39,306 nucleotides of DNA from an uncultured Alphaproteobacteria bacterium (GTDB lineage: Bacteria > Pseudomonadota > Alphaproteobacteria > HIMB59 > GCA-002718135): the NCBI GenBank assembly GCA_902627245.1, contig CACOIH010000014.1, positions 1 through 39,306 on the forward strand, read 5' to 3'. Below are positions 10,125-38,087 of the stretch, in pieces (within the stretch, counting starts at the first letter, position 1; the number at the start of each line of letters is the position of its first letter). The notes below the pieces were generated by a model. The model searched no databases. It was given only the letters and a program-made list of their open reading frames with translations, and had not been told where the DNA came from. Position numbers and translations under genes: made by a program.

Positions 10125-10785
10125 AAAAAAATTATTTAAATTTTCTATCGCACAGAAGTTTTTAGCTTTTATTGGATATCTGTATATTTTATTTGTTGGG
10201 TTTACTTCGAAAATAGAAATAATAAATCAAGAATTTTCAAATAAAATGTGGAAAGAAAAGAAACCATTCATATTAGCATTTTGGCATGGTCAATTAATGA
10301 TGATTGGGTATGTTTGGAAAAGTAAGGCAGTACTAAATATGTTAGCTTCAAGTCATAGCGATGGCAGATTTGGAGCAAATATTGCTGGTCACTTTAATTT
10401 AAAAAATATTTCAATTGAATCAAAAAATAAATCTCCTTCGTTAAGACAAGTTTTTAAAATACTTAATAATGGAGATTATTTAGGAGTAACTCCTGATGGA
10501 CCTAGAGGGCCACATCAAAAAGTTTCTGAGGGCATAATTAAAATTGCTATTAATTCACAGGTTCCAATACTTCCACTAGGTTTTGCATCCAGTAAAAATT
10601 TTAGGCTCAAATCTTGGGATTCTTTTCTAATCACTTATCCATTTTCTAAATGTATGTTTATTTGGGGTGATCCAATTGTTATACCGTCAACAGTAAAAGA
10701 TTCTGAAATTGAAAAATATAAATTATTTTTAGAAGAAAAAATTAATTATTGTATGAATACTGCTGAATCAAAATTAGATGCTTAA
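10114..10785 (+). CDS. DUF374 lysophospholipid acyltransferase-like protein
   Basis: A 223-residue protein of the DUF374 family, related to glycerolipid and lipid A acyltransferases. Visible motifs are FWHGQLMMIGY (about residues 51-61), SSHSDGRFGANIAGHF, and the strongly conserved TPDGPRGP (about 128-135). A hydrophobic N-terminal stretch (about 11-27) suggests membrane association. The family is commonly found beside msbA, waaA and lpxK in alphaproteobacteria, as here, and is presumed to acylate a lipid A-related or phospholipid acceptor. The precise substrate is unknown. It overlaps the exporter by 11 bases and waaA by eight. Confidence 0.88.
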   Translation: MSFKKKLFKFSIAQKFLAFIGYLYILFVGFTSKIEIINQEFSNKMWKEKKPFILAFWHGQLMMIGYVWKSKAVLNMLASSHSDGRFGANIAGHFNLKNISIESKNKSPSLRQVFKILNNGDYLGVTPDGPRGPHQKVSEGIIKIAINSQVPILPLGFASSKNFRLKSWDSFLITYPFSKCMFIWGDPIVIPSTVKDSEIEKYKLFLEEKINYCMNTAESKLDA

Positions 10786-11998
10786 TTTATACAAATTATT
10801 CAGTTACATTTTAATACCAATAATTTTAATTAATTTATACATAAGATTGATAAGCAATAAAGAAGATAAAAAAAGATATAAAGAAAGATTAGGGAACACA
10901 GATTATAATTTAAAACTATCAAAAAAAACTATTTGGATACATGCAGCTAGTGTTGGTGAGTTTAAATCTTGCCATATAATAATTGAGAAATACTATACGG
11001 ACTTTAATATATTAGTTACAACTACAACCAAATCATCAGCTGAATATGTAAGTAGATATTATTATAATAAAGTTATTCATCAATATATACCTTTTGATGT
11101 TCCATTATGGTGCTCTAAATTCGTATGTCATTGGAAACCATCATTAGTTTTATGGATTGAATCAGACATATGGCCAAACATGTTAAAAGTTATAAGAGAT
11201 CAAGAAATCAAGTGTATGTATATAAACGCTAGAATATCGCCAAAATCTTTTAATAAATGGAAAAGTTTGAAAAAAATATATTCGATATCCTTAAGTACAT
11301 TTGATAAAATTTATGCTCAAAGTACTAATGATTTAAATCGTATTAAAATATTAAGTAATTTGGATGTTAAGTATATTGGTAATTTAAAACTATCAAAGTA
11401 TTTTGAAAATAAAACCTATCAAAATAATAATAAAAATTTTTCTATAATGTTAGCTAGCACCCATGATAAAGAAGAAGCAGAGATATTAAAAAAAATAAAA
11501 CATATTATAAAAAAAAATCAATTAAAAATGTGTATTGCACCGAGACATCCAGAAAGAACAACTAGTATTTCTAAATTATTGACTGAAAATAATTTTTCAT
11601 ATTCGTTTGATAGTAAAGAAAAAAATCTTAAACATGATGTAATAATAGTTGATAGTTTTGGTAAATTAGATTCATACTTTAATAGTAGTGAAATTGTAAT
11701 TTTAGGTGGTTCTTTTGTAAATAAGGGAGGGCATAACCCAATAGAACCTGCAAAACATGGTTGTGCTATTATAAGTGGAATGCATATACACAATTGGCAA
11801 AATATTTATGATGAAATGCTAAAAAATAAAGCCTGCGTAATATTAGATAATATTGACAATTTAGCTGAATTAATTGTTGAATTTATATCAAATAAAGCTC
11901 TACTTCAAGATTCCAAAAATAAAGCGCTGGACTTTTCAAATAAAAAGTTTTTTGATAATGAAACTTTGTTTGAAGAAATAAATTTGGTTTTAAATTGA
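10778..11998 (+). CDS. waaA: 3-deoxy-D-manno-octulosonic acid (Kdo) transferase
   Basis: Transfers Kdo from CMP-Kdo to lipid IVA, starting the inner core of lipopolysaccharide. It is a GT-B glycosyltransferase (family GT30) anchored by an N-terminal helix (about residues 5-25). The conserved ERLG and IWIHAASVGEF follow (about 37-63), the latter with the catalytic glutamate. The C-terminal donor-binding block GGSFVNKGGHNPIEPAKHG (about 310-328) is intact. Length 406 is typical. It overlaps the DUF374 gene by eight bases and abuts lpxK directly (TGA then ATG). Whether one or two Kdo units are added cannot be read from the sequence. Confidence 0.96.
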   Translation: MLNLYKLFSYILIPIILINLYIRLISNKEDKKRYKERLGNTDYNLKLSKKTIWIHAASVGEFKSCHIIIEKYYTDFNILVTTTTKSSAEYVSRYYYNKVIHQYIPFDVPLWCSKFVCHWKPSLVLWIESDIWPNMLKVIRDQEIKCMYINARISPKSFNKWKSLKKIYSISLSTFDKIYAQSTNDLNRIKILSNLDVKYIGNLKLSKYFENKTYQNNNKNFSIMLASTHDKEEAEILKKIKHIIKKNQLKMCIAPRHPERTTSISKLLTENNFSYSFDSKEKNLKHDVIIVDSFGKLDSYFNSSEIVILGGSFVNKGGHNPIEPAKHGCAIISGMHIHNWQNIYDEMLKNKACVILDNIDNLAELIVEFISNKALLQDSKNKALDFSNKKFFDNETLFEEINLVLN

Positions 11999-23496: not shown

Positions 23497-24810
23497 CTAT
23501 AAATATTTATTTATAATATTTTCTAAATATTCTTGTCTTCCAGATCGAGTTTTTGGATCAATATTATTATCAATAACTTTTTGATGAATTAAGTCTAAAG
23601 TTGCATCTTTATCGTGTATAAACTTACCTAATTCACCATCCCAATCAGAATAACGATCTTTAATAAATTTAGGAATAACATTATCTTCTATTAATTTCTC
23701 AACAGCAATTAGAGTTTTAGCGCAGACATCCATACCTCCAATGTGAGCATAAAATAAATCTTCTGGGTCTATTGATTGTCTTCTAATTTTTGCATCAAAA
23801 TTCAGGCCTCCACTTCCAAGCCCTCCATTAGTAAAAATATAATAAAAAGCCATTAGTAAATCAGCTGGATTGTTCGGAAACTGATCTGTATCCCATCCAA
23901 TTAATGTATCTCCTCTATTTACGTCGAGACTTCCCAATGCATCATTTGCAATAGCGTAAGCGATCTCATGCTCATAATTATGTCCAGACAAAGTTGCATG
24001 GTTTGCCTCAATGTTAAGTTTTATCTCACCTTCAAGTCCTGCTTTTCTTATAAAGGCAAGACAAGCGGCAGAATCAAAATCATATTGATGCTTTGTTGGC
24101 TCATGTGGTTTGGGCTCAATTAGTATTTGACCTTTGAAACCAATTTTGTGTTTGTAATTGACAACTAGTTCTAAAAATCTCTTTAAATTATCCATTTCTT
24201 TGGTCATATCAGTGTTCAGTATAGTTTCATAACCTTCTCTACCGCCCCACAAAACATAATTTTGTCCGCCAAGTCTTAGTGTTGCATCCATGCAGTCTTT
24301 TACTTGAGCTGCTTTGTATGCAAAGACCTCTGGGTCAGGATTTGTTGATGCACCACTCATATATCTTTTATGAGAGAAGGCATTTGCAGTACCCCATAAT
24401 AATTTCATACCCGTTTCTTCAATTTTATTTTCCATTAAATCAATAATATGCATAAAATTTTTTTGCGTTTCTCTATAATTTGATCCCTCAGGTGCAATAT
24501 CTCTGTCATGAAAACAAAAAAATGGAGTCTTTATCTTAGTAAAAAAATCAAATGCACAATTAAGTTTTTGTTCTGCCATTTTTATTGGATCACCATTGTT
24601 CATCCATGGTCTTTCAAATGTTTGTCCACCGAAAGGGTCTAATCCGGGCCATGTAAAAGTGTGCCAATAACATGTAGCAAAGCGGAAATGCTCTTTCATC
24701 GATTTTCCTAAAATAGTTTTATTTTCATCATAAAATTTAAAAGCTAATGGATTGTCACTATTTTCACCTTCGAATTGTATTTCAGGTATATTTTTAAAAT
24801 AATCGTGCAT
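23497..24810 (-). CDS. xylA: D-xylose isomerase
   Basis: Interconverts D-xylose and D-xylulose (also D-glucose and fructose) using two divalent metals in a TIM barrel. The start YFKNIPEIQFEG is the type II xylose isomerase opening. The catalytic pair is His101 and Asp104 in FHDRDIAPEG, and metal ligands lie in ILIEPKPHEPTKHQYDFD and NIEANHATLSGH. Length 437 is typical of the class II enzyme. A GGGAGA ribosome binding site (24815-24820) precedes the ATG. No classical xylulokinase or xylFGH is adjacent. It marks the left boundary of the sugar island and is divergent from the glyoxalase gene. Confidence 0.97.
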   Translation of the reverse strand: MHDYFKNIPEIQFEGENSDNPLAFKFYDENKTILGKSMKEHFRFATCYWHTFTWPGLDPFGGQTFERPWMNNGDPIKMAEQKLNCAFDFFTKIKTPFFCFHDRDIAPEGSNYRETQKNFMHIIDLMENKIEETGMKLLWGTANAFSHKRYMSGASTNPDPEVFAYKAAQVKDCMDATLRLGGQNYVLWGGREGYETILNTDMTKEMDNLKRFLELVVNYKHKIGFKGQILIEPKPHEPTKHQYDFDSAACLAFIRKAGLEGEIKLNIEANHATLSGHNYEHEIAYAIANDALGSLDVNRGDTLIGWDTDQFPNNPADLLMAFYYIFTNGGLGSGGLNFDAKIRRQSIDPEDLFYAHIGGMDVCAKTLIAVEKLIEDNVIPKFIKDRYSDWDGELGKFIHDKDATLDLIHQKVIDNNIDPKTRSGRQEYLENIINKYL

Positions 24811-25316: not shown

Positions 25317-25335
25317 AACTATTTTAATAGTTTTT
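25317..25335 (+). terminator. possible rho-independent terminator after gloA
   Basis: A six-base stem AACTAT/ATAGTT around a TTTA loop (25317-25332), continued by a run of T on the plus strand. It begins 11 bases after the gloA stop and overlaps the 3' end of the convergent Gfo/Idh gene. The stem is AT-rich, so the call is tentative. Confidence 0.4.
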
Positions 25336-26464
25336 GAATTTCTTCATCTTTCAATGGAGTGGGTTTTTTACATGTTGATCGCATATTAACTTCTGTTGAA
25401 TTTTCTGCAGCTATCATTGCACTTTCAATAATATCAAGAACATGAAGAGCAAGTTCACCATTGCATCGTTGCTCAATATTATTTTCAATAGCATTTACCA
25501 TTTCAGACAAACCAATTCCTCTATAATTAGATTGTTTCGGCGCTTCATTACTTCTAACTGTTTTGTTTAGTATATTAGTTTTACCTAGAGGTTTATTTTC
25601 TACACTATGCTCAATCCACTCAGAACCTAACTCCATTGAAGTTACAACTGGTCCACCAAACATATTAGGATCAGGTACGATAATTGAGCCTTTTGTACCG
25701 TACAACTCTACATGGTTTCTTTTATGATTTAATACATCAAAGGAAATAAAGCCTTGGATAATTGAATTATTATGAAATTCCAAACTGAACATGTAAGAAG
25801 TTGGTATATCAACATCAAAAAATTTTCCAATTTTTGGCCCAGCTTTATATTCTCTTTTATCAGAAAACTTAACACCTCTACTTCTAATATTCTTTGCAGG
25901 ACCGAGTAAATTAACAAGAGTCGTAAAAAAATATGGTCCCATGTCAATGACTGGTCCACCACCATCTTGAAACCAAGATTCAGGATTTGGGTGAAAATCT
26001 TGGACACCTGGAAATGCAAATATAAAATTACCAGTGAGTATTTCTCCTAATTCTTTTGAATCAATAATCTCTCTAGATAGTTGACCGCCACCTCCAAGAA
26101 AAGTATCTGGAGCATTTCCAAAATATAAATTATTATTCTTAGAAATTTGAAGCAGTTCTTTTGCTTGATCGTATTTAACACTCATAGGTTTTTCTGAGTA
26201 AACATGTTTTCCTGCTTCTAATATTTTTTTAGAAACTTCAAAATGTGCTTGTGGAATTGTAATGTTTAAAACTACATCTATTGAATTATCACTTAATAAT
26301 TCTTCAACTGTTTGTGCTTTTATATTATTTTCTGACGCAGTCTTTTTTGCTAAGTCCATATTAATATCTGAACAAGAAACAAAATTGATATTATTAAAAT
26401 ATTCTTGTGATCGCAGATAAGTTTCAAGAATATTACCACATCCAATTACACCAATATTTTTCAT
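25319..26464 (-). CDS. Gfo/Idh/MocA family sugar oxidoreductase
   Basis: NAD(P)-dependent dehydrogenase acting on a sugar, sugar acid or cyclitol. The N-terminal Rossmann fold starts GVIGCGNILETYLRS (residues 5-19), and the EKP motif is residues 91-93 in YSEKPMSV. In the active-site helix, VIDMGPYFFTTLVNLLG has Tyr where many members have the catalytic His, as in glucose-fructose oxidoreductase-like members. Length 381 is normal and there is no twin-arginine signal. It lies six bases after the PhyH gene and is the last gene of the SBP1 importer operon, so its substrate is probably derived from the imported sugar. The exact substrate cannot be told. Confidence 0.9.
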   Translation of the reverse strand: MKNIGVIGCGNILETYLRSQEYFNNINFVSCSDINMDLAKKTASENNIKAQTVEELLSDNSIDVVLNITIPQAHFEVSKKILEAGKHVYSEKPMSVKYDQAKELLQISKNNNLYFGNAPDTFLGGGGQLSREIIDSKELGEILTGNFIFAFPGVQDFHPNPESWFQDGGGPVIDMGPYFFTTLVNLLGPAKNIRSRGVKFSDKREYKAGPKIGKFFDVDIPTSYMFSLEFHNNSIIQGFISFDVLNHKRNHVELYGTKGSIIVPDPNMFGGPVVTSMELGSEWIEHSVENKPLGKTNILNKTVRSNEAPKQSNYRGIGLSEMVNAIENNIEQRCNGELALHVLDIIESAMIAAENSTEVNMRSTCKKPTPLKDEEIQKLLK

Positions 26465-26470
26465 AGAAAT

Positions 26471-27319
26471 TTATTTGGCTTTATAGCCTAATCCAATATC
26501 ATTTACAGTTTTACTTACATCCATTATTTTAGGATATTTATAATTTAATCCTAAAAGTTGTTTAACTCTATTAGGACAATTTTTTTTAAATTCATCATCA
26601 AGATAAGTTACAAGATCCTCTACCGGCTTTATATACTTTGGAAGAAATTCTATTAGCAATACAGCTCTTTGATGATCAGAATTATTTGGTGATGCACCAT
26701 GCCAACAGTTACCATTGAATAAAACTAAATCACCTGGATTTGCTGTCATTTGTTTTTGTTTAGAAAAATCATCTTTATCATTAGGATAATGAAGTTTCTT
26801 TTGAGATCCTGGAACATAGGCTGTGGCACCTGACAATTCAGAACAAACATCTAGAGGAATTGTAGCCTGACAATTTTGAGGAAAAGAACTATTCAATCCC
26901 ATTGGAAATGTATCTTTTTTATAATAATCCCAGTAAGGATAATCTATATGTAATTCTTGACCGGGAGCCCCTGGCATCAATCTACTTGCGCAATAAGAAC
27001 CGCATGTAAATTCTGTACCTAAAAAAGAAGACATTAAATCAAATATTACATCATGCGAAATTAGTTTTCCAAAAATTGCCCCTTTACCAAAAAGATTCCA
27101 CACTCTTTGTTGTAAGTGAATTTTTCCTGAGGCTTCTGCTTCTGCATTAAAGTGAGATTCTTTTTGCTCTTGATTAGAAGCAAATTCATTAATAATATTC
27201 CTTGTTATTTCAATATCTTTAGAACTATAAACATCTTTAATTACTACAACACCACTACCTTTTAGAAGCTCATTTAGAATGTCTTGTTTGTTATAATCAT
27301 CATTATTGGCCAATAACAT
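26471..27319 (-). CDS. PhyH-family Fe(II)/2-oxoglutarate dioxygenase
   Basis: A 282-residue protein of the phytanoyl-CoA dioxygenase family. The double-stranded beta-helix iron ligands are His124 and Asp126 (LHIDYPYW) and His207 (CWHGASPN); Arg218 in HQRAVLLIEF is placed to bind 2-oxoglutarate. SGATAYVPGSQK between them is the usual family strand. The family oxidises many small molecules by hydroxylation, which can lead to demethylation. Location between the importer ATPase (45-base gap) and a sugar dehydrogenase (six bases) suggests it acts on a modified sugar or related carbon compound brought in by this importer; that is inference from context only. Confidence 0.88.
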   Translation of the reverse strand: MLLANNDDYNKQDILNELLKGSGVVVIKDVYSSKDIEITRNIINEFASNQEQKESHFNAEAEASGKIHLQQRVWNLFGKGAIFGKLISHDVIFDLMSSFLGTEFTCGSYCASRLMPGAPGQELHIDYPYWDYYKKDTFPMGLNSSFPQNCQATIPLDVCSELSGATAYVPGSQKKLHYPNDKDDFSKQKQMTANPGDLVLFNGNCWHGASPNNSDHQRAVLLIEFLPKYIKPVEDLVTYLDDEFKKNCPNRVKQLLGLNYKYPKIMDVSKTVNDIGLGYKAK

Positions 27320-27364
27320 TCCATTAATTAATCAAAAAATATAAGTATAGTCAAATAATATGAT

Positions 27365-28147
27365 CTATTTAAGATCTAACTCTTTTGCAAGGTCGCCTAT
27401 TTCTGCTCCACCTGCCATTAATCTTTTTACATCTTCTCCGCCAAGCTCACTTGCAAGGCCGTTTCCAATAACCTCACCCAAACTTAAAAAGGTATAACGG
27501 TCTGCAATAAGTCGTGCATGAATTTCGTTATGTGTAATTAGAATAATTGCAATATTACCTAGTCGTTGAACTTTTTTAATTGTTTTCAAAACTTCCATTT
27601 GTTGTTTTTGACCAAGAGCTGAAGTTGGTTCATCAAGAATTAATATTTTTGCTCCAAAATAAATTGCCCTTGCAATAGCTAAAGTTTGCCTTTGGCCGCC
27701 AGACATCGTTCCAACCTTTTGATTTGGATCAGCAATGTTAATTCCAATCTTAGACATTTCCTCAATTGTTATCTTGTGCATGTCATCCATTTGCATAAGA
27801 CCAAAGGGGCCAGGGCCTTTTTTTAATTCTCTACCTAAGAAAAAATTTAATGTAACAGATGTTAAATTATTTAAAGCAAGATCCTGATAAACCGTACCAA
27901 TACCAGCATCTGATGCTTGTCTTGGTGATGCAAATTTTACTATATCACCATCAACCTTTATTTCACCATTAGTGGCAGGATGGACTCCAGATAAGACTTT
28001 AATTAATGTTGACTTACCGGCACCATTATCACCAAGTAAAGCATGAACTTCTCCTGGGTATACATCTAGAGATACTCCATTTAGAGCAGTAAAACTTCCA
28101 AATTTTTTAACTAGATCTTTGATTTCAATTAAAGGCTTTTTATCCAT
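27365..28147 (-). CDS. CUT2-type sugar ABC importer, ATP-binding subunit (system 1)
   Basis: Single-domain importer ATPase of 260 residues. Walker A is GDNGAGKST, the Q-loop GTVYQDLALN, the signature MSGGQRQ and Walker B ILILDEPTSALG. Many ribose/xylose (CUT2) importers use a duplicated ATPase of about 500 residues; this one is the single-module FrcA-like form, so two copies should assemble. It is clearly related to the system 2 ATPase in this window but differs in the loop KKGPGPFGLMQMDD and in the C-terminus. Its start overlaps the permease stop by one base. It powers uptake with the permease and SBP1. Confidence 0.94.
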   Translation of the reverse strand: MDKKPLIEIKDLVKKFGSFTALNGVSLDVYPGEVHALLGDNGAGKSTLIKVLSGVHPATNGEIKVDGDIVKFASPRQASDAGIGTVYQDLALNNLTSVTLNFFLGRELKKGPGPFGLMQMDDMHKITIEEMSKIGINIADPNQKVGTMSGGQRQTLAIARAIYFGAKILILDEPTSALGQKQQMEVLKTIKKVQRLGNIAIILITHNEIHARLIADRYTFLSLGEVIGNGLASELGGEDVKRLMAGGAEIGDLAKELDLK

Positions 28148-29739
28148 TAAATACTTCCCATTATTCTTTTTCTTATGTTTTCATTGGTCAATGCTGCAAC
28201 AACTAATACTGCACCCAAGAATACTCTATAAAATGACCCATCAACACCAGGTATATAAAAGAAAGCTTCCTTTGCAATTCCAAATATAACAGCACCCAGC
28301 ATGATTCCTAAAATAGTTCCGAACCCACCAGTTAAAACAACTCCACCAATAACTGCGGCCGCAATAGCTTCTAATTCTTTAAGATTTCCCTTAGCTGTAT
28401 CAGCTGTGTTTACTTCAAATACCTGACACGCTGCAAACATTGTTGCACAAAAAGCAGTAAACATAAATAGCCCTATTTTAACTTTATTAGTTGGGACACC
28501 ATTTGCTTGTGCAGCAGATAGGTTACCACCTGTAGAATAAATCCAGTTACCCACCTGAGTTTTACTTAATACAAAATAACATATGATTGCTAGTAATACC
28601 CAAATCATTACACAAGAATAAAGACCAGGAGCAAACTTATTACCGAACATATTTACATTCCAATCGGCGGTAAAGTATAACCAATCAAAGAAAGGTTCCA
28701 TAATATCCCCGCCAAAGAAATTTGCTACTGGTCTTGCGGTAATGAAAGAATCTATATATGCTCTAGCCAAATCTAAATCTGTTACTGCTTTAGCAGCTAC
28801 TTCTGGAACCTGAATGCCTGCATCAATTTTTTTCTGAATTGCTTCAACCATCGTTTCGTTTCCAGATTTTATAGCGTTGTCTAAAGTATTTTGCATTGTA
28901 TCTACCATCTTTTGTTTTTGTAAAAGTGTTTTAGTAACTGCAACTTTTTCATTAATGTAAGTTAATTGTTCTGTAAGTTTATTAATTGTTTTGTCAGGAG
29001 CTGTTTTTAAGATTTCTAATAGTTCTTCATTTGACAACGCTTTTGCAGCATCACGTTCCATCTCTCCATGACCTGGAACATTAATAATATTTTTTATATC
29101 GGGAAGATCAGTCACTGTAGTAGATCCAGCTGTCTGATCAGGTTTTTTATTAAAAGCTCGATATGTAACTTCTGTTAAACCTCTCAGGAAAAATAGACCC
29201 CCTAAGGTAACAATAAATGAAGCTATTCCACTTTTAACAATTATGTATCCCTGAAACCAACCAAAAGAAAGGGTCATCACTAAAGTTATTAAAAGTGCTG
29301 TTAAGGGAGAGACATTTGTTATTTCAAATAACTTTATGCCTTCAAAATGAAAACCACCTTCAAATGAAATGTAAGGTATAACAACAGCAAATCCCCATTT
29401 AAGTATCATTGCCATTGCTCCTCCAGCAAAACCAATCATGGAACCGACACTAAGATCAAATTCACCTGCTATGATGAGCATACCTGCTCCAAGTGCAACT
29501 ATACCCAATTGTGAAATAACCCTGAAGTTATTCCTAATTCCAAGTGCGTTAAAACCTTCACCAGCAAATGGATTTAATGAAAATTCTCCTTGTGGAATTG
29601 AGAAGTAACCTAGCATTGCAAAAAGTAAAAGCATAACACCCAAAGGTCCAACTTCTGGTCTTGCAAAAAATGCTGAGTACCATCTTTTAGGTTTTAACCT
29701 ATCTGATTCTTGTCTTTGAGGTTGTGCGTTTGAATTCAT
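28147..29739 (-). CDS. CUT2-type sugar ABC importer permease with large extra domain (system 1)
   Basis: Membrane subunit of the importer. The core is typical of ribose/xylose permeases: helix with AGEFDLSVGSMIGF (about residues 91-104), GIASFIVTLGGLFFLRGL (about 171-188), and the C-terminal EAIAAAVIGGVVLTGGFGTILG (about 457-478). At 530 residues it is about 150-200 longer than usual. The excess is an insertion at about 195-370, between two core helices, containing a hydrophilic, helix-forming, lysine/glutamate-rich stretch (about 225-335) flanked by aromatic, glycine-containing segments. By the family's topology this loop should face the periplasm. It follows SBP1 after a strong hairpin and overlaps the ATPase gene by one base. 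Confidence 0.93.
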   Translation of the reverse strand: MNSNAQPQRQESDRLKPKRWYSAFFARPEVGPLGVMLLLFAMLGYFSIPQGEFSLNPFAGEGFNALGIRNNFRVISQLGIVALGAGMLIIAGEFDLSVGSMIGFAGGAMAMILKWGFAVVIPYISFEGGFHFEGIKLFEITNVSPLTALLITLVMTLSFGWFQGYIIVKSGIASFIVTLGGLFFLRGLTEVTYRAFNKKPDQTAGSTTVTDLPDIKNIINVPGHGEMERDAAKALSNEELLEILKTAPDKTINKLTEQLTYINEKVAVTKTLLQKQKMVDTMQNTLDNAIKSGNETMVEAIQKKIDAGIQVPEVAAKAVTDLDLARAYIDSFITARPVANFFGGDIMEPFFDWLYFTADWNVNMFGNKFAPGLYSCVMIWVLLAIICYFVLSKTQVGNWIYSTGGNLSAAQANGVPTNKVKIGLFMFTAFCATMFAACQVFEVNTADTAKGNLKELEAIAAAVIGGVVLTGGFGTILGIMLGAVIFGIAKEAFFYIPGVDGSFYRVFLGAVLVVAALTNENIRKRIMGSI

Positions 29740-29752
29740 AAAATTGTAAAAA

Positions 29753-29772
29753 AAGCCGCCCGAAGGCGGCTT
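29753..29772 (-). terminator. strong hairpin with T run between SBP1 and permease (attenuating terminator)
   Basis: On the minus strand an eight-base stem, AAGCCGCC paired with GGCGGCTT, closes on a TTCG tetraloop and is followed by a run of seven T. It begins 12 bases after the SBP1 stop and ends shortly before the permease ATG. It has the form of an intrinsic terminator inside an operon, which would let SBP1 be made in excess over the membrane subunits. Confidence 0.8.
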
Positions 29773-29784
29773 AAAGATTAATTA

Positions 29785-30693
29785 TTATCTATCAATACCA
29801 GCTAATGCTGAAACTGAAGCAGCATTAGACTTATCAACAAATCCTGGTCCAGATGGAATATTTGCACCTGGTAATAATCCTGCACTGTTGTTGTATAAGT
29901 GTAGAACTATAATTGGCATATAGCCTTGTAGTCTTTGTTGTTGGTCAATAGTAAATGAAACTTTACCAGCTCCAATTAAGTCCATAACTCCTGGGCTTAA
30001 ATCGAAACATGCGTGGTGAATACCACTCATACCAAGATCATCCATTGCTTTTGCAACACCTTCACAAACGTGCGGTCCTACTGATAGAACTGCATCAACG
30101 TCTGGGTTAGCTTGTAAAGCAGCAGTTGCACGAGTTACAATAGTTGCTGGGTCAGAAGTAGTGTCTGTAAATTCCATTGGAACAGCTTCTCCATAACCTT
30201 CACATCTGTCAACAAGTGCAGTGTTGTAAGCTTCTTGGATCATACATAGTGCTTTAGTAGCTCCTTCTGAAGCAGCTCTTGCACCTGCTTTTTGACCAGC
30301 AAGATACTCAGGCTGACCAACGTGCATTAAAGCACCTAAAGCAGCTGAGTTTTCAAGACCTGAGTTCATTGTTACAACTGGTACACCAGCAGCAACAGCA
30401 GCTTTAATTGCTGGGCCTAACGCATCTGGATCAGGTAATGAAATTACCATACCATCTGGCTGAGTTGCAGCAGCAGCTTGAATTGAACTTGCCATATCTG
30501 CCATATCAGCTGAAGGGTTGTAGATGTATTCAAAATCAGCACCGATTGCTCTAGCTGCATCTTCACCACCCTTTTGCACTACTGGCCAGAAAGGATCTTT
30601 ACCTTCACCGTGCGTTACCATAACGTATCTTTCAGCGAAGGCTGCACTTGTAGCAAATACGATTGCTACAACTGTCATAAGAAGTTTTTTCAT
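29785..30693 (-). CDS. periplasmic sugar-binding protein, ribose/LacI type (system 1)
   Basis: Captures the substrate in the periplasm for the system 1 importer. The signal peptide is residues 1-20 (cleavage after AAFA). The mature protein is a type 1 periplasmic binding fold: YVMVTHGEGKDPFWPVVQKGGEDAA, then the DGMVISLPDPDALGPAIKAAVAAGVPVVTMNSG hinge region, and FTIDQQQRLQGYMPI late in the protein. Ligand identity cannot be assigned from sequence. Base use is richer in alanine and G+C than its neighbours, as expected for an abundant protein. The ribosome binding site is a perfect AGGAGG (30701-30706), seven bases before the ATG. Confidence 0.93.
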   Translation of the reverse strand: MKKLLMTVVAIVFATSAAFAERYVMVTHGEGKDPFWPVVQKGGEDAARAIGADFEYIYNPSADMADMASSIQAAAATQPDGMVISLPDPDALGPAIKAAVAAGVPVVTMNSGLENSAALGALMHVGQPEYLAGQKAGARAASEGATKALCMIQEAYNTALVDRCEGYGEAVPMEFTDTTSDPATIVTRATAALQANPDVDAVLSVGPHVCEGVAKAMDDLGMSGIHHACFDLSPGVMDLIGAGKVSFTIDQQQRLQGYMPIIVLHLYNNSAGLLPGANIPSGPGFVDKSNAASVSALAGIDR

Positions 30694-30911: not shown

Positions 30912-31889
30912 ATGAGTCAAAAATTTGGTGCAGGAATTTGGCATTTTGCTACATATGTTGATAGATATAATACCGAGGGTTACGGTGAGCCCCGTAGTGT
31001 GCTTGATGCTATTAAATTAGCAGGTCAGGTTAAGGATCTCTCAGTTGTAGATATAAATTATCCTTATTTTGGAGGCTCATTTACAAATCAAGAAATTAAG
31101 GATGAGCTAGATAAAGTTAATTTAGAAGTTATTGGAATTACTCCAGAGATCTATACTAAAGAATTTAGAAAAGGTGCGTTTACAAATCCTGACTCTGGCA
31201 TTCGTAATAGAGCTCATGAACTTATTACAGAAGCGTGTGATGCTGTGCGATTTTTTAATGCTGCTTATGTTAAGTTATGGCCAGGTCAAGATGGTTGGGA
31301 TTATCCTTTTCAAGTAGATCACAGAACATTATGGAAAAATTCAATGGATGGAGTTGCAAGACTAGCAAGCGAAAATCCAGATCTTAAATTTGTAATCGAA
31401 TATAAGCCGCGCGAGCCAAGGGTTAAAATGAGCTATGACTCGGTTTCAAGAACTTTACTGGGTATAGAAAAAATTGGGCTTCCAAATATTGGTATATTAC
31501 TTGATTTTGGACATGCTATTTATGGTGGTGAGTCAGCTGCTGACTCTGCTCAACTAGCTATAGATTATGGTCGCTTATTTGGAATGGATGTTAATGACAA
31601 TTATAGATCTTGGGATGATGATCTAATTGCTGGTAGCTTACATCCTATAGAAATATTTGAATTTTTTTATGTTTTAAAAAAGAATAATTGGGAAGGTGTT
31701 TGGCAACTTGATCAGTTTCCATTTAGAGAAGATAGTGTACAGATGGCAAATCAAGCAATCGACTTCTTAAAATCAATAGATAAGGCTTTGAATGATTTAG
31801 ATATGAAAGCACTTGAAGAAGCTCAAGCTAATCATGATGCAATGACTGCGTTAAAAATTGCACAGAAATCACTTTATAAATTTTTATAG
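30912..31889 (+). CDS. TIM-barrel sugar isomerase (xylose isomerase-like, L-rhamnose isomerase-related)
   Basis: Probable aldose-ketose isomerase of the AP endonuclease 2 superfamily. The pattern matches the Pseudomonas-type L-rhamnose isomerase layout. Glu is in [10 protein letters not shown], Asp and His in [11 protein letters not shown], the Asp pair in [15 protein letters not shown], and a late Asp in [11 protein letters not shown]. The usual metal His of the FHFND segment appears to be Asp here (GMDVND). Conserved similarity begins at [16 protein letters not shown], so I choose ATG 30912 (325 residues). ATG 30897 and ATG 30840 (349 residues) are open in frame, and none has a good ribosome binding site. 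It is divergent from SBP1 and ends four bases from the kinase stop. The substrate could be D-apiose, a 6-deoxyhexose or another aldose; not assignable from sequence. Confidence 0.85.
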
Positions 31890-31892
31890 ATT

Positions 31893-33359
31893 TTAAAAAT
31901 AAAATTTTTTTAAAACTTGTTTCCAATTTTCATAACTTTTGTTTGCTGAATTGTTTTTTGATGGAGTATAAACTAAATATTTTTGTTTTAGTGTTGTCAT
32001 TTCTTTAAAATTCTTTTTAATTTTCATACCTAGTAAACCCATCATTAATGCTCCATAAGAAGACATATCTTTATAATTAGTTACATATATTTTTTTATTT
32101 AAAGTATTAGACAGGAATTGAATAAATGGAGTATTAGAAACTATACCTCCATCAATAAAAATATCATTATACTTTATTTTATTTTTAATATCTAAGTCAT
32201 CTAGATAATCTTTAATTTGAAATGCTATAGACTCAAGAGCTGCTCTTATTATATGATTCTTATTAATAGAAGGTGTTAATCCATATATTAATGCCTTGCT
32301 ATTAGGCTTCCAATGAGGAGAACTTAAACCAACAAAAGCTGGAACGAAAACTACACCTTCAGTATTTTTAGTCTTAACAAATACTTGATCAGTCTCTTTC
32401 TCATTACTTATAATTTTTAAATTATTTTTAAGCCAACTTATAGTAGCTCCAGCATAATTAATTAGACACTCATAAGAATATGACGGTTTATTTCTATAAA
32501 CATAAGAAAGTGTAGTAATAATATTATTATTATGTTCAAATGACTGGCCTATATTTGTTAATATTGAGGCGCCTGTACCTAAAGTAACTTTAGTATTGCC
32601 CTTACTGAAACATTGATTTGCGAAAATTGAAGCTTGTGAATCTCCTATTACCCCTGAAATAGGAATGTTCTTATTTAATATCCCGTTAAAATTTGTATAT
32701 CCAAATATTGACGAACTTTCTTTAACATCTGGGAGGCTATGTAAATTTAATTTAAATAATTTTAAAAGATTCGTGCTCCAAACAAGTGAGCTATTATCAA
32801 ATAAAAGAGTTCTAGATGCATTTGTATAGTCGGTAGAATATATTTTTTGATTGGTTAATTGATAAATAAGAAATGTATCAATTGTGCCAAATAAAGCCGA
32901 GCCATTTTTTAATTTATCTTTAATTTTTTTATTTGAATTTAACAATTCTATCAATTTCGGTGCAGGAAAATATGTATCTAGTGTGAGTCCTGTCTTTTTT
33001 TTTATTAAATTTTTATTTTTTATTGATTTATTTATTTTATCACAAATTTTTTGACCCCTTCTACATTGCCATACAATTGCATTATGGAGAGGTTTGCCTG
33101 ATTTTTTGTCAAATATTACAAAGGTTTCCCTTTGATTAGTAATGCTTAAAAATAAATTCTTGTCATATTTAATTTTTTTAGAAATTTTTTTTACTAAAAA
33201 AAATATATTTTTCATTATTTCATTGGCATCGTGCTCTACATGACCTCTGGATTTTTGAATCTGTTTATGTGATTTAGAAATCTTAGATATAAGTTTAAAT
33301 TTTTTATTGTATAAAAAAATTGTAGTAGATGAAGTGCTTTGATCAAGTGATAAATACAT
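31893..33359 (-). CDS. FGGY-family carbohydrate kinase, glycerol kinase-like
   Basis: ATP-dependent kinase of a polyol or ketose. The N-terminal phosphate loop is LSLDQSTSSTTIFLY and the second domain has TLGTGASIL and IDGGIVSNTPFIQF. It resembles glycerol kinase more than xylulokinase: NQRETF (Arg77, Glu78), Tyr130 in LDTYFPAPK and Asp240 in GDSQAS sit where E. coli GlpK has Arg83, Glu84, Tyr135 and Asp245, which bind glycerol. FVPAFVGLSSPHW and YTNASRTLLFD are also GlpK-like. It lacks the xylulokinase-type MHG motif. Length 488 is normal. The start overlaps the transketolase C-subunit stop by one base. That coupling argues for a ketose or branched substrate (such as apulose or xylulose) rather than plain glycerol. 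Function is inferred. Confidence 0.9.
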   Translation of the reverse strand: MYLSLDQSTSSTTIFLYNKKFKLISKISKSHKQIQKSRGHVEHDANEIMKNIFFLVKKISKKIKYDKNLFLSITNQRETFVIFDKKSGKPLHNAIVWQCRRGQKICDKINKSIKNKNLIKKKTGLTLDTYFPAPKLIELLNSNKKIKDKLKNGSALFGTIDTFLIYQLTNQKIYSTDYTNASRTLLFDNSSLVWSTNLLKLFKLNLHSLPDVKESSSIFGYTNFNGILNKNIPISGVIGDSQASIFANQCFSKGNTKVTLGTGASILTNIGQSFEHNNNIITTLSYVYRNKPSYSYECLINYAGATISWLKNNLKIISNEKETDQVFVKTKNTEGVVFVPAFVGLSSPHWKPNSKALIYGLTPSINKNHIIRAALESIAFQIKDYLDDLDIKNKIKYNDIFIDGGIVSNTPFIQFLSNTLNKKIYVTNYKDMSSYGALMMGLLGMKIKKNFKEMTTLKQKYLVYTPSKNNSANKSYENWKQVLKKFYF

Positions 33360-34291
33360 TAACTTATTAGGTTCTTTGCAATTTCTGCTAATCTTTTGGG
33401 CTCCATATTATAATGATCTAGAACATCACTTTGTGAACCATTAATCATATACTCGTCTGGAAAGCCAATAATTTTGAAATTTGTTGTGATTTTTTTTTGA
33501 GCTAAAATACTTGAACATCTTTCTCCCAACCCTCCACTTTCACTATGTTCTTCTAATGTTATAATACCTCTAGTATGTTTTATAGAATCTAAAAAAAGAC
33601 TCTCATCAAAAGGTTTAATGGTGTGCATGCTAATTAGTGTGCATTTGAAATTATCTTTTTCAAGTATTTCTATTGCCTTATATGCTCTTTGAACAGTCTC
33701 ACCCGTTGCAATAAAAACTAGGTCTTTACCTTCTTTGATACTAATACCCTTACCTATTTTAAATGATTGATTATCATTGTGTATTTTTAACATTGGTTTT
33801 TTTCCAAATCTTACAAATAATGGTTCATTAAAATTTACAGCTGCTTGAATTATTTTTTTTGTTTCAAAATTATCACATGGAATAACGATATTTAAATTGT
33901 TAATGGCTCTCAATACAGCAATATCATGAATAGAGTGGTGTGTAGATCCAAGCTGACCATAACTGACACCAGAGCTGATCCCAACAAGTGTAACTGGATG
34001 GTTTGAGTAAGCGATATCATTTTTAATTTGTTCTAAAGCTCTTGCAGTTAAAAAACTAGAAGGGGATACTCCAAATACTTTTTTTCCAACAGCTGACAAA
34101 CCTGCACAAATTGCTACTAGGTTTTGCTCAGCAATTCCAACTTCAATAATTTGATCTGGAAGTTCTTTTCCAAAGTTTGTTAGTTTACCTGAACCCCTGG
34201 AGTCACTTGTAACAACAACAATATCTTTATCGTGTCTTGCAAGATCAAGTAAAGTTTCGGAAAAAACCTCTAAGTTAGCTTTTTCAATCAT
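33359..34291 (-). CDS. transketolase, C-terminal subunit (pyrimidine-binding and C-terminal domains)
   Basis: Second half of a split transketolase. VGIAEQNLVAICAGLSAVG (about residues 52-70) has the glutamate that activates thiamine diphosphate. SSFLTARALEQIKNDIAY and the GSTHHSIHD loop follow, then the transketolase C domain (LVFIATGETVQRAYKA and GIITLEEHSESGGLGE). Length 310 is right for this subunit. It overlaps the N-subunit gene by eight bases, so they are made together, and the kinase gene by one base. Split transketolases often serve dedicated catabolic routes, for example apulose-4-phosphate or sulfo-sugar transketolases, while a full-length transketolase serves central metabolism. 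Whether one exists elsewhere in this genome is unknown. Confidence 0.93.
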   Translation of the reverse strand: MIEKANLEVFSETLLDLARHDKDIVVVTSDSRGSGKLTNFGKELPDQIIEVGIAEQNLVAICAGLSAVGKKVFGVSPSSFLTARALEQIKNDIAYSNHPVTLVGISSGVSYGQLGSTHHSIHDIAVLRAINNLNIVIPCDNFETKKIIQAAVNFNEPLFVRFGKKPMLKIHNDNQSFKIGKGISIKEGKDLVFIATGETVQRAYKAIEILEKDNFKCTLISMHTIKPFDESLFLDSIKHTRGIITLEEHSESGGLGERCSSILAQKKITTNFKIIGFPDEYMINGSQSDVLDHYNMEPKRLAEIAKNLIS

Positions 34292-35117
34292 TTTCTAATT
34301 GTATTTTTTGTTTATTCAGTTCATCAATGGCTTTTGTATATTGATCATCGTCAGGAACTTTGTGATGCCAAACTACTTCGTTTTCTATAAAACTTACCCC
34401 TTTGCCTTTAATAGTATTTGCTATTATTACGTTTGGTTTTTTATTTTCAAAAGGCACTTCTTTGAAAACATTTATTAAATCTTCTACTGAGTTACCATTT
34501 ACCTCTTTCACTGATAAGCCAAAGGATGTAAATTTTTCTTTGAGTGGCTCCAAAGGATTTACATTTTCTGTCTCTCCAGTAATTTGTAATCTATTTCTAT
34601 CAATGATAATAATTAAATTATCTAAGTTATACTTATTAGCAGTCATCAATCCCTCCCACACAGAGCCTTCACTTAACTCTCCATCACCTAAAAGGGTAAA
34701 AACACTATAAGGTTTTGTATCTAGTTTAAATCCTATTGCCATTCCAACTGCCACTGACAAACCATGTCCTAAAGCTCCTGTGTTATGCTCTACTCCAAAT
34801 ACTTTTCTGGTTGGATGTCCAATAAAATGGGAATTGAATTTGTTTAAAGTTAAAAGCTGTTCCTTTGTATAAAATCCTTTATCACATAAAATTGTATATA
34901 ATGCTTCCACAGAATGGCCTTTACTTTGTATGTAGTGATTACGATCGTTTGAATTAAAATTACTTGGGTCAACTTTTAAAATTTTATTATACAATACATT
35001 AAGTATATCAATACAAGAAAGACTTCCGGCTGTATGTCCTGCGCCAGATTTATAAATTATTTCTAAAATTGTTTTTCGGTATTCAATAGATTTTGATTGT
35101 AGTGTTTTTATGTTCAT
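34284..35117 (-). CDS. transketolase, N-terminal subunit (thiamine diphosphate-binding domain)
   Basis: First half of a split transketolase. It carries the thiamine diphosphate-Mg motif LLGDGELSEGSVWEGLMTA with the terminal IIIIDRN (about residues 144-175). GAGHTAGSLSCIDILNVLY and SKGHSVEALY upstream are the family's cofactor and substrate loops. I start at ATG 35117 (277 residues), where family similarity begins (IEYRKTILEIIYKSGAGH). The open frame extends to 35228, but that would overlap frcA by 85 bases with an unrelated Cys/Arg-rich leader. The gap to frcA is then 26 bases and the overlap with the C-subunit eight. The substrate is not determinable by sequence alone. Confidence 0.93.
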   Translation of the reverse strand: MNIKTLQSKSIEYRKTILEIIYKSGAGHTAGSLSCIDILNVLYNKILKVDPSNFNSNDRNHYIQSKGHSVEALYTILCDKGFYTKEQLLTLNKFNSHFIGHPTRKVFGVEHNTGALGHGLSVAVGMAIGFKLDTKPYSVFTLLGDGELSEGSVWEGLMTANKYNLDNLIIIIDRNRLQITGETENVNPLEPLKEKFTSFGLSVKEVNGNSVEDLINVFKEVPFENKKPNVIIANTIKGKGVSFIENEVVWHHKVPDDDQYTKAIDELNKQKIQLEND

Positions 35118-35143
35118 TAGGTTTATTAAATTTTTTTCAAAAA

Positions 35144-35911
35144 TTAATTTTGTTTTGGAGGCTCTTTTGCTCCAGTCATAAATGCAACTGCATCTGACAT
35201 TGAATACTCTTTTGGATTGATAACACAAAGTCTTTTACCAAGGCGGTGTATGTGTATTCTATCTGAAACTTCGAAAACATGGGGCATGTTATGAGAAATT
35301 AGTATTATTGGTATTCCTTTAGCTCTTACTTCTCCAATTAAATCTAAAACTCTTCTGCTTTCCTTAACACCTAAGGCTGCAGTTGGCTCATCCATTATTA
35401 TTACTTTTGTTCCAAAAGTTGTAGCCCGAGCAACAGCCACTCCTTGTCTTTGGCCTCCGGACAATGTTTCAACTGGTTGGTTAATATTTTGTATAGTCAA
35501 AAGACCAAGCTCTGAAAGTTTTTCTCTAGCAAGTTTTTGCATTTTAAAACGATCCATAAATCTAAACAAATCTCCCATTATTCCTGGTTGTCTGATCTCT
35601 CTACCTAAAAACATATTATCTGAAATTGATAAAGCAGGTGACAATGCAAGATTTTGATAAACTGTCTCAATTCCAACTTTTCTTGCTTCCATTGGAGAAT
35701 TAAAATTTACCTCATTACCATCTAATAGTATCTTTCCCTCATCAGGTTGTACAGCTCCACACAATGCTTTAATCAAAGTAGATTTACCAGCTCCGTTATC
35801 ACCAATAACTCCAAGAACTTCGTTTGGATATAATTCTAAATTAGCATTATCCAATGCAACAACTCTTCCATAACGCTTAGATAAACTTATTGATTGAAGA
35901 ATAGGTTCCAT
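35144..35911 (-). CDS. frcA: fructose-type sugar ABC importer, ATP-binding subunit
   Basis: Single-module importer ATPase of 255 residues that strongly resembles rhizobial FrcA throughout. Walker A is GDNGAGKST, followed by GIETVYQNLALSPALSISDNMFLGREIRQPGIMG. The signature is LSGGQRQ and Walker B is VIIMDEPTAALG. The C-terminal segment IHIHRLGKRLCVINPKEYSMSDAVAFMTGAKEPP is FrcA-specific from memory of the family. It starts one base after the frcC stop and drives uptake with FrcB and FrcC. Fructose, mannose and ribose are substrates of the characterised Sinorhizobium system; the actual ligand here could differ. Confidence 0.93.
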   Translation of the reverse strand: MEPILQSISLSKRYGRVVALDNANLELYPNEVLGVIGDNGAGKSTLIKALCGAVQPDEGKILLDGNEVNFNSPMEARKVGIETVYQNLALSPALSISDNMFLGREIRQPGIMGDLFRFMDRFKMQKLAREKLSELGLLTIQNINQPVETLSGGQRQGVAVARATTFGTKVIIMDEPTAALGVKESRRVLDLIGEVRAKGIPIILISHNMPHVFEVSDRIHIHRLGKRLCVINPKEYSMSDAVAFMTGAKEPPKQN

Positions 35912-35912
35912 A

Positions 35913-36995
35913 TTATGCTGATATATTCCTTATCCACTGATCTATCGCTACAGCAACAATGATTAAACAACCTAAGGCAAATCTTTGCCATAAAACGTCT
36001 AACCCTGCAATTGATAGACCAGAGCTAAACACTCCAACAATTAGTGCTCCAAAAAGGGATCCAACTACTGAACCTCTGCCTCCGAAAAGAGATGTTCCCC
36101 CAATAACTACTGCAGTAATTGAATCTAAATTTCCTTCATAGAAACTTGTTGGAGAAACTGAGCCTACTCTACCTATTGAAACCCAAGCTCCAATAGCGCA
36201 TATTACTCCTGCCAAAGTATAGACAGATATTAAAGTTCTATCTGTTCTAATCCCTGAAAGTTCTGCAGCCTCTTTATCATCACCCACAGCATACACATGT
36301 CTACCCCAAGCCGTTCTATTTAACGCAAACCATAATACTACAAAAATAAGTATCATTAAAAAGGCGCCATAAGTAAATACAGCTCCATAAATATTTATTC
36401 TCTCTCCAAAGAAATGTAATAGTGGTGCATTAGATTCAATATCTCTTGCTCTTATAGATTGTGATCCAGAAAAATAAATTACTAGAGCAAAGAAAATACT
36501 CCATGTTCCAAGAGTTACAATAAAAGGTGGTAGTTTAACTTTTGTAACAAGTAATCCATTAAGCGCTCCACAACTTGCACCACCAATAAATCCAACAATT
36601 AACGCAAGTGGAGTTGGAAAACCAAGATTAACAGCTATGGTGCCCATAAATACCGAAGATAAAACCATAATGGCAGCAATGGATAGATCTATACCTGCTG
36701 TTAAAATGATTAGGGTTTGTCCAGCTGCAAGTATTCCAACAATAGTAACCTGCTGAATAATTAATGAAAGATTAAATGCTGAGAAAAATTTATCACCAGC
36801 AACTAAGCCAAATGCCATTACACTAATAACTAAAATAAAAACGGGAACCATTGTCGGATTCCCATGCAAAAAATGTTGTATTTTTTCTAAAATAGATTTG
36901 TCTTTCACCTCAAATGAATGATGTTCCTGATTTTTTTCACCAATGTCTTCAGAAAATGTTGGTTGTTTTTTTAAATCTTTTGAAATGTCAGACAT
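35913..36995 (-). CDS. frcC: fructose-type sugar ABC importer, permease
   Basis: Membrane subunit of 360 residues, the usual CUT2 size. A charged cytoplasmic N-terminus (about residues 1-50) precedes eight or more helices. Family marks are LTAGIDLSIAAIMVLSSVF (about 98-116), VKLPPFIVTLGTWSIF (about 152-167), AVGDDKEAAELSGIRTDRT in the cytoplasmic loop, and DSITAVVIGGTSLFGGRGSVVGSL (about 288-311). It lacks the large insertion found in the system 1 permease. It lies downstream of frcB with a hairpin between them and one base before frcA. Confidence 0.93.
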   Translation of the reverse strand: MSDISKDLKKQPTFSEDIGEKNQEHHSFEVKDKSILEKIQHFLHGNPTMVPVFILVISVMAFGLVAGDKFFSAFNLSLIIQQVTIVGILAAGQTLIILTAGIDLSIAAIMVLSSVFMGTIAVNLGFPTPLALIVGFIGGASCGALNGLLVTKVKLPPFIVTLGTWSIFFALVIYFSGSQSIRARDIESNAPLLHFFGERINIYGAVFTYGAFLMILIFVVLWFALNRTAWGRHVYAVGDDKEAAELSGIRTDRTLISVYTLAGVICAIGAWVSIGRVGSVSPTSFYEGNLDSITAVVIGGTSLFGGRGSVVGSLFGALIVGVFSSGLSIAGLDVLWQRFALGCLIIVAVAIDQWIRNISA

Positions 36996-37015
36996 GTTTT
37001 TTAATCTTATTTTAC

Positions 37016-37037
37016 TAGGGCGGATTAATCCGCCCTA
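37016..37037 (-). terminator. intercistronic hairpin between frcB and frcC
   Basis: A perfect nine-base stem TAGGGCGGA/TCCGCCCTA around a TTAA loop, GC-rich in an AT-rich setting. It lies 24 bases past the frcB stop and 20 bases before the frcC start. No T run follows on the minus strand (GTAAAATAAG), so it is more likely an RNA-protecting or partial-attenuation hairpin than a full terminator. Its place matches the hairpin in the system 1 operon. Confidence 0.65.
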
Positions 37038-37061
37038 AATTAAAATTTCTTACTTAATTTA

Positions 37062-38087
37062 TTAACCCCAACATCTGTCTAAACCTTCTTTAGTATCTAT
37101 AGAAGGCACACCAGGTGCAGGATTATCAGTAATTAAGTTAACACCAGTATCAAAGAAATCTAAACCAGGAGTGTTTGCTGGTTTAGTTCCATTTTCAGCC
37201 CATTCTTTAATTGCTTCAATACCTAAAGAAGCCATTAATAATGGATACTGTTGAGAAGTAGCTCCAATTACTCCATCTCTTACGTCTTCAACACCAGGAC
37301 ATCCACCATCAACTGATACGATTAATATACCATCTTTATCTTTTCCAGCAGCTTTAAGTGCTTCGTATGCACCAGCAGCAGCAGGTTCATTTAGTGTATA
37401 TACAACGTTGATGTTAGGATTTTTCTGAAGAAGTTTTTCCATAGCATTTCTACCACCTTCTTCATTACCATTTGTTGCTTCGTTACCAACTATTCTTGGG
37501 TCATCTTCATCACCCCATCTAGTAATATCTTTAGTATCGATACCAAAACCTGTTAAGAAGCCTTGGTCACGTAATACATCTACTGATGGTTGGCTGATGT
37601 TTAGGTTAAGCATAGCGATAATTGCTTTTGAAGTATCTCCAAAAGATGCTGCAGCCCACTCACCAATTAAACGACCAGCTTTAAAGTTATCTGTTGCGAA
37701 TGTAGAGTCCGCAGCTGTAATAGGCTCTAAAGGTGTATCTAGTGCGATAACAAGAAGTCCAGCATCACGCGCTTGTTGAAGTGGTGTTGTGATTGCTTTT
37801 GTATCTGATGCTGCAATTAAAATTCCTTTAGCACCGGAAGCAATACATGTTTCAACAGCTTTTACTTGTGTTTCATGGTCACCATCAATTTTTCCCGCAA
37901 ATGTTGAAAGCTTAATACCTAACTCATCTGACTTAGCTAATGCACCTTCCTTCATTTTTACAAAGAATGGGTTGATATCAGTTTTTGTTATCAAACATGC
38001 TTCAATAGAGTGTCCATCCGCAAATGTAGACAAACTAATAAAAGAAGCAGTAAAAAAACTAACTATAAATAGTAATACTTTTTTCAT
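37062..38087 (-). CDS. frcB: fructose-type periplasmic sugar-binding protein
   Basis: Type 1 periplasmic binding protein of 341 residues closely resembling rhizobial FrcB. The signal peptide is residues 1-23 (cleavage after STFA). Characteristic segments are [20 protein letters not shown] (about 30-49), [76 protein letters not shown] and [13 protein letters not shown], ending DRCWG. Characterised FrcB binds fructose and also mannose and ribose. The gene has a strong GGAGGA ribosome binding site (38091-38096) and begins the frcB-frcC-frcA-transketolase-kinase operon. Higher G+C at its codons suggests high expression. Confidence 0.94.

Follow-up and report, generated by a model that had tools for sequence, protein, structure and literature searches.

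The window analysed here, a stretch of 39,306 nucleotides from an uncultured alphaproteobacterium of the order HIMB59, contains between positions 30912 and 38087 a cluster of seven genes that most probably encodes a catabolic pathway for D-apiose of the transketolase type. We base this on the observed gene content, operon structure, protein families, trees, a pocket signature in the kinase and conserved neighbours, from which we infer every reaction and substrate and which importer serves the pathway. In the proposed scheme, free D-apiose would enter the cell via a binding-protein importer and would be converted by the isomerase to D-apulose; the FGGY kinase would then phosphorylate one of the two CH2OH groups attached to the branching carbon, giving D-apulose 4-phosphate, and the two-subunit transketolase would move a two-carbon unit onto glyceraldehyde 3-phosphate, with xylulose 5-phosphate and dihydroxyacetone phosphate as products. 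The pathway type itself is already known: the D-apiose transketolase pathway with ApsI, AplK and AptA/AptB (MetaCyc PWY-8089) was reportedly described by Carter et al. in 2018. The window shares with it the isomerase family, the two-subunit transketolase clade, an FGGY kinase, a sugar ATP-binding cassette (ABC) importer and the gene neighbourhood, and differs from it by a separate kinase clade, non-orthologous importers, an isomerase gene on the opposite strand and a marine host with a streamlined genome.

The features are as follows:
30912..31889 (frame open from 30840), plus strand: TIM-barrel isomerase of the ApsI family, predicted to convert D-apiose to D-apulose (AP_endonuc_2, PDB 3ktc)
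31893..33359, minus strand: FGGY kinase of a separate marine clade, proposed apulose 4-kinase (FGGY_N/C, tree, pocket)
33359..34291, minus strand: transketolase subunit with pyrimidine-binding and C-terminal domains, AptB-like (PF02779, Transket_pyr; PF02780, Transketolase_C)
34284..35117, minus strand: transketolase subunit with thiamine diphosphate domain, AptA-like (PF00456, Transketolase_N), overlapping the next gene by 8 bases
35144..35911, minus strand: single-domain ATPase of a sugar ABC importer (PF00005, ABC_tran); the best NCBIfam models are sugar-importer ATPases, below cut-off
35913..36995, minus strand: permease of a sugar ABC importer (PF02653, BPD_transp_2); ribose/allose permease models, below cut-off
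37062..38087, minus strand: sugar-binding protein, proposed D-apiose receptor (PF13407, Peripla_BP_4); ribose-type binding proteins are the top PDB matches
27365..30693, minus strand: second importer of uncertain role, divergent from the isomerase (ATPase 27365-28147, permease 28147-29739, binding protein 29785-30693)

All seven genes of the cluster are intact open reading frames with Pfam domains assigned to each, and their positions and families agree with a preliminary description of the stretch. The minus-strand operon runs from 38087 down to 31893 in the order binding protein, permease, ATPase, transketolase N-terminal part, C-terminal part and FGGY kinase, with the binding protein gene as probable first gene. 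The intergenic distances are 66, 1, 26, -8 and -1 bases, the last three of which bear out the tight coupling of the ATPase gene, both transketolase subunits and the kinase proposed in that description. The isomerase does lie side by side with these genes, as had been stated, and is no part of the operon, being on the plus strand; its end and that of the kinase gene are 3 bases apart. Its start at 30912 fits, because for most relatives the similarity sets in only at residues 22-28 of the longer reading frame. Shuffled sequences contained more promoter-like sites than the real one (42.5 against 32) and about as many terminator-like sites (3.2 against 3), and both kinds of site are therefore uninformative.

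The genome to which the window belongs is 62% complete, with 1.19 Mb in 47 contigs. Its order consists of small-genome alphaproteobacteria and is the one that we take to be known as AEGEAN-169 or SAR11 subclade V; the close relatives of the isomerase come from single-cell and metagenome genomes, mostly with AG-numbers.

The isomerase and the split transketolase

The only strong match of the isomerase in PDB was 3ktc (E 8.5e-132), which is 100% identical over 323 amino acids to the isomerase of the genome G383. In G383 the isomerase gene stands in a one-strand run together with genes for a binding protein, a DUF2291 protein, an ATPase, a permease, AptA, AptB and AplK, with a regulator adjoining, and all genes of the run except the isomerase match the Escherichia coli SE15 cluster, AptA with 79% identity and the DUF2291 protein with just 28%. 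The window isomerase belongs to the 3ktc family, whose counterpart sits inside a canonical D-apiose cluster, and this places it in the ApsI family. It is 73-81% identical to rhizobial, Devosia and actinobacterial copies. In 50 loci outside the order (L036-L085, taken among the best 80 of 355 isomerase matches), relatives of AptA, AptB and AplK stand alongside the isomerase in 40, and a relative of the E. coli binding protein in 27. One rhizobial cluster also carries tpiA, as would suit a pathway that ends in a triose phosphate.

An earlier study took these genes of E. coli SE15 as its D-apiose references; other Escherichia strains carrying the cluster grew on D-apiose there, which E. coli K-12 does not (PMC13001218). 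The same study gives the name apsI to a gene of the Pectobacterium cluster and places two short-chain dehydrogenase/reductase (SDR) oxidoreductases in the E. coli cluster where apsI would be (PMC13001218). The window is like the E. coli SE15/ST131 cluster in its two transketolase subunits, which are 45% identical to E. coli AptA and 34% to AptB, whereas the E. coli side has no apsI, the two SDR oxidoreductases and an importer with a DUF2291 protein.

For the transketolase, a tree was built from both subunits joined (38 rows, one per 72% identity group, with named rows always retained and four long rows of the order, L268, L270, L272 and L273, left out beforehand); it supersedes an earlier tree of the N subunit only, which had weaker support. 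The marine rows form a single clade (100/100), the sister of which is a pair made of Listeria and Monoglobus (100/98), whose transketolases lie near a gene with an Apiosidase domain (PF13204). Marine, Listeria, Monoglobus, E. coli, Pectobacterium-type, rhizobial and actinobacterial apiose rows stand on one side of a 96/95 branch, 23 rows in all. This AptA/AptB clade, to which the window transketolase belongs, leaves outside 15 of the 19 rows labelled as other transketolases, 13 of them past a 100/98 branch with Collinsella and L266 in between, and takes in four: L285, surrounded by AplK and an SDR gene, L284 (Deinococcus), surrounded by an FGGY kinase and an ABC importer, and L241 and L235, from loci with AplK and SDR genes (L289, L290). 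A grouping with other split transketolases, named beforehand as the outcome that would speak against a dedicated pathway, did not appear. The D-apiose transketolase route put forward in the preliminary description is thus upheld for the isomerase, by its family, and for the transketolase, by its grouping with AptA/AptB.

Two isomerase types in one position

Among 162 genomes of the order, 34 carry the ApsI-type isomerase, 18 carry a fucose-isomerase-type protein and none carries both (isomerases were counted at E <= 9.1e-104, one being cut by a contig end, and weaker paralogues of 32-37% identity were excluded). The replacement protein has 467 residues, belongs to the fucose isomerase family PF02952 and is unrelated to the ApsI-type isomerase (an example is L204:11535-12938). 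In 15 of the 17 loci read it is flanked by the second importer on one side and the transketolase genes on the other, the position of the isomerase; in the two exceptions it stands beside the kinase (L195) or the contig ends (L208). At least one of four marker genes was found in 57 of the 162 genomes. Kinase or transketolase is present in 51 of the 52 genomes that hold either isomerase type, an association far beyond chance, while 5 of the 56 genomes with kinase or transketolase lack both isomerases; by our reading of the positions, a contig end is nearby in four of these five. A chance adjacency of the cluster genes was considered as well and is ruled out by the conservation of the neighbourhood.

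The isomerase states, set on a tree of transketolase plus kinase, changed at least four times, and a single early replacement therefore cannot explain the pattern. This tree has 38 rows, obtained from the 39 of 50 marine loci with three full-length proteins by removing two duplicates and adding the window, and one of its rows has no isomerase in view. Fucose-isomerase-type proteins were also found inside canonical apiose clusters (L226, L280, L281), with 44% identity in the alphaproteobacterium G592 and 53% in Rahnella and Sodalis, which makes this protein a candidate second D-apiose isomerase. Since two unrelated enzymes alternate in the slot, both beside an AptA/AptB-type transketolase and an FGGY kinase, the slot would encode a D-apiose isomerase; of the comparative arguments for this function, the alternation appears to us the strongest, and it yields a clean prediction, namely a D-apiose isomerase of the fucose isomerase type.

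The FGGY kinase and the operon importer

In order to place the kinase, a tree of 48 rows was used (one per 80% identity group, 59 in number, with L002 left out and 21 of 34 AplK rows used), which had been rebuilt after dropping a XylB outgroup row that had a branch of 10 and was unable to root it. Three clades were obtained: AplK (21 rows, 100/100), marine (14 rows, 100/100) and GlpK (11 rows, 100/99). The window kinase falls in the marine clade, apart from the AplK clade, and it is a distinct lineage near glycerol kinase; the proposal that it is the counterpart of AptK/AplK did not hold in the sense of orthology. The marine kinases and two apiosidase-linked kinases together make up one side of a 91/88 branch.

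The residues Gln246 and Phe270 of E. coli GlpK, in the numbering of the GlpK structure, line the glycerol site. At these two positions all 11 GlpK rows have Gln/Phe, while the window kinase, all 21 AplK rows and both apiosidase-linked kinases have Ser/Ser; the GlpK residues Arg83, Glu84, Trp103, Tyr135 and Asp245 are retained in the window kinase. The window kinase and GlpK share their family, and where the two pocket positions depart from GlpK, all of these kinases have small or polar residues. As apulose would correspond to glycerol with a glycolyl group on C2, a glycerol-kinase-like lineage makes chemical sense, and such a kinase could have to lose two large pocket residues in order to change from glycerol to apulose.

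The apiosidase-linked clusters of Listeria and Monoglobus resemble the window by their sister transketolase and by a GlpK-like kinase with the Ser/Ser pocket; their own traits are an isomerase related to fucose/arabinose isomerases and, for Listeria, a phosphotransferase system (PTS) beta-glucoside transporter together with the apiosidase-domain gene. In Monoglobus pectinilyticus (L277:777-7008) and Listeria (L279:5296-12624), an annotated isomerase, transketolase and glycerol kinase lie near the apiosidase-domain gene, and the annotated "glycerol kinase" has the Ser/Ser pocket of AplK. In the marine locus L013 the kinase gene is in two pieces just after the isomerase (10001-10969), possibly a broken gene or an assembly error.

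The operon importer had been described as FrcBCA-type: that it is a sugar ABC importer stands, and "FrcBCA" is only a loose name, because none of the NCBIfam importer models considered, which for the ATPase were the top 25 out of 192, reaches its cut-off. Its permease is 30% identical to that of the E. coli apiose cluster, and the E. coli-type D-apiose importer, with orthologous binding protein and DUF2291 protein, was not found in the window importer. The same slot in 11 near relatives holds the E. coli type in five and the window type in five, the sequence ending before the slot in one. In the five with the E. coli type the binding protein is 39-40% identical, a DUF2291-cluster protein occurs in three, and the four with sequence further on have a permease of 54-55% and an ATPase of 46-49% identity. 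On balance, the operon importer is somewhat more likely than not the apiose importer. An attempt to name its ligand from PDB neighbours failed, with many ribose-type proteins at similar scores.

Alternative readings and significance

The main alternative in the preliminary description was simple use of D-xylose, with the cluster isomerase as xylose isomerase and the kinase acting on xylulose. The isomerase is indeed a distant relative of XylA, and a true xylA lies 6 kb away in the window; that gene, however, encodes a full XylA (23497-24810; 660 bits, cut-off 533) and a full XylB is present on another contig (522 bits, cut-off 380), so that the cluster isomerase and kinase are not needed for xylose, for which a dedicated transketolase is unnecessary too. 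The window isomerase scores 61.7 and 36.4 bits with two XylA equivalog models (cut-offs 447 and 533) and 28-62 bits across all XylA models (cut-offs 447-888), and the kinase 176.8 bits with the XylB model TIGR01312 (cut-off 380.25). With full enzymes present besides, a xylose pathway was ruled out, and we give it hardly any probability. It is also very improbable that the kinase is the cell's glycerol kinase with housekeeping genes as neighbours. GlpK is its top PDB match and best NCBIfam model, and no other kinase match at E 1e-60 was found in the 62% complete window genome; against this, the kinase reaches only 461.3 of the 590.35 bits of TIGR01311, forms part of a separate clade and has the Gln and Phe of the glycerol pocket replaced, and its relative G037, a genome of one contig (1,410,127 bases), has a full GlpK (670 bits, cut-off 590) besides the marine kinase. 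Cut-off, tree and pocket together ruled out an identity as glycerol kinase, and the placement within GlpK or XylB that had been expected to count against a dedicated pathway did not appear. The kinases of E. coli (AplK, 495 bits), Monoglobus (566) and Listeria (484) are likewise below the GlpK cut-off of 590.

A reading in which the same enzyme logic serves a different sugar, a rare aldose near apiose such as another branched sugar or a tetrose, is unlikely. It would suit the separate kinase clade, the pocket that differs among marine members and the operon binding protein, only 25% identical to that of the E. coli apiose cluster, but it sits poorly with an isomerase 73-81% identical to copies found mostly in apt clusters (40/50), a transketolase inside the apiose clade and the finding that five of the 11 near relatives have an E. 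coli-type importer at this place. There is very little chance, in our judgement, that the isomerase partners the divergent rhizopine/inositol-type importer instead of the kinase and transketolase. The two share an intergenic region, and this second importer (241 bits with a rhizopine-type binding-protein model, cut-off 420; PDB 4ru1, E 6.8e-48) remains a neighbour of the isomerase, or of the protein that replaces it, in most of the marine loci. It was not seen, however, in 4 of the 11 near relatives (L007, L012, L013, L035), where isomerase, kinase and transketolase are still together, and it may therefore serve something else; in many loci of family f2, moreover, the isomerase gene immediately precedes those for transketolase and kinase, all of them on one strand.

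Several observations weigh against D-apiose as the substrate, besides the low identity of the binding protein. The window kinase is 27% identical to E. coli AplK, and approximately unbiased (AU) tests reject neither a union of the marine clade with AplK (p 0.055) nor one with GlpK (p 0.185); the Monoglobus kinase scores above the cut-off of one GlpK subfamily (578 bits against 498). Across 40 marine kinase loci, which include at least one genome twice, the pocket pair is Ser/Ser in 10, Ser/Cys in 3 and Ala/Asn in 27, so that the specificity may vary, and FGGY kinases with Ser/Ser and another substrate may occur outside the compared sample. Among the 50 loci outside the order, the apt set is partial in three and wholly missing in seven, some contigs being short, and isomerase relatives of 63-70% identity have no apt genes in view in Pantoea (L227), Croceibacterium (L228), L222 and L223; in the genome of L222 (G319) apt genes are present elsewhere. 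No apiosidase was found in the 162 genomes of the order, 20 of which are at least 90% complete; the cell therefore probably imports free apiose.

D-apiose is a rare branched sugar that is generally associated with land plants and seagrass. We regard it as an even question whether, in the free-living HIMB59/AEGEAN-169 bacteria, D-apiose is a regular carbon source used by way of an undescribed kinase lineage and importers, with ApsI exchanged at least four times with an unrelated D-apiose isomerase of the fucose isomerase type that also completes the clusters of Rahnella and Sodalis, and with an unrecognised pool of apiose in open seawater behind it. If this is true, a surface-ocean order in which 57 of 162 genomes carry a dedicated pathway would imply that apiose is a real part of the sugars dissolved in seawater and a so far overlooked nutrient of the open ocean.

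Growth on D-apiose is reported for a marine strain of the Rhodobacteraceae, which follows another route, an oxidative one (PMC11747546). A comparison of AEGEAN-169 from 2023 describes fructose ABC transporters and broad sugar uptake, and the word apiose does not occur in its main text (PMC10308909); some of the fructose importers reported may be apiose importers. A literature search, whose coverage mostly left out subscription journals, did not bring up any description of the second isomerase type or of HIMB59 bacteria using apiose. As far as it goes, the presence in HIMB59/AEGEAN-169, the kinase lineage and the second isomerase type are new, although a part of this may stand in Carter et al. 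2018.

Relatives of both SDR oxidoreductases of the E. coli apiose cluster (52-60% identity) occur in the marine loci L021, L022, L025, L026, L027 and L031, which also hold the ApsI-type isomerase and where the SDR genes have their own importer; for this reason they may channel a further substrate to apulose, whereas the proposal in PMC13001218 is that they stand in for ApsI. L289 and L290 carry SDR relatives too, and L285 shows the first of the two only. Another contig of the window genome (L288; contig C15, 589-14528) contains a 33% identical isomerase paralogue, an FGGY kinase, a split transketolase and, named by eye, a sugar ABC importer and aldehyde-dehydrogenase-like and DeoC-like genes, and is probably another dedicated sugar route. 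In the window itself, positions 25319-30693 hold in a row a Gfo/Idh oxidoreductase, a PhyH-type dioxygenase and the rhizopine/inositol-type importer, an arrangement kept in several close relatives.

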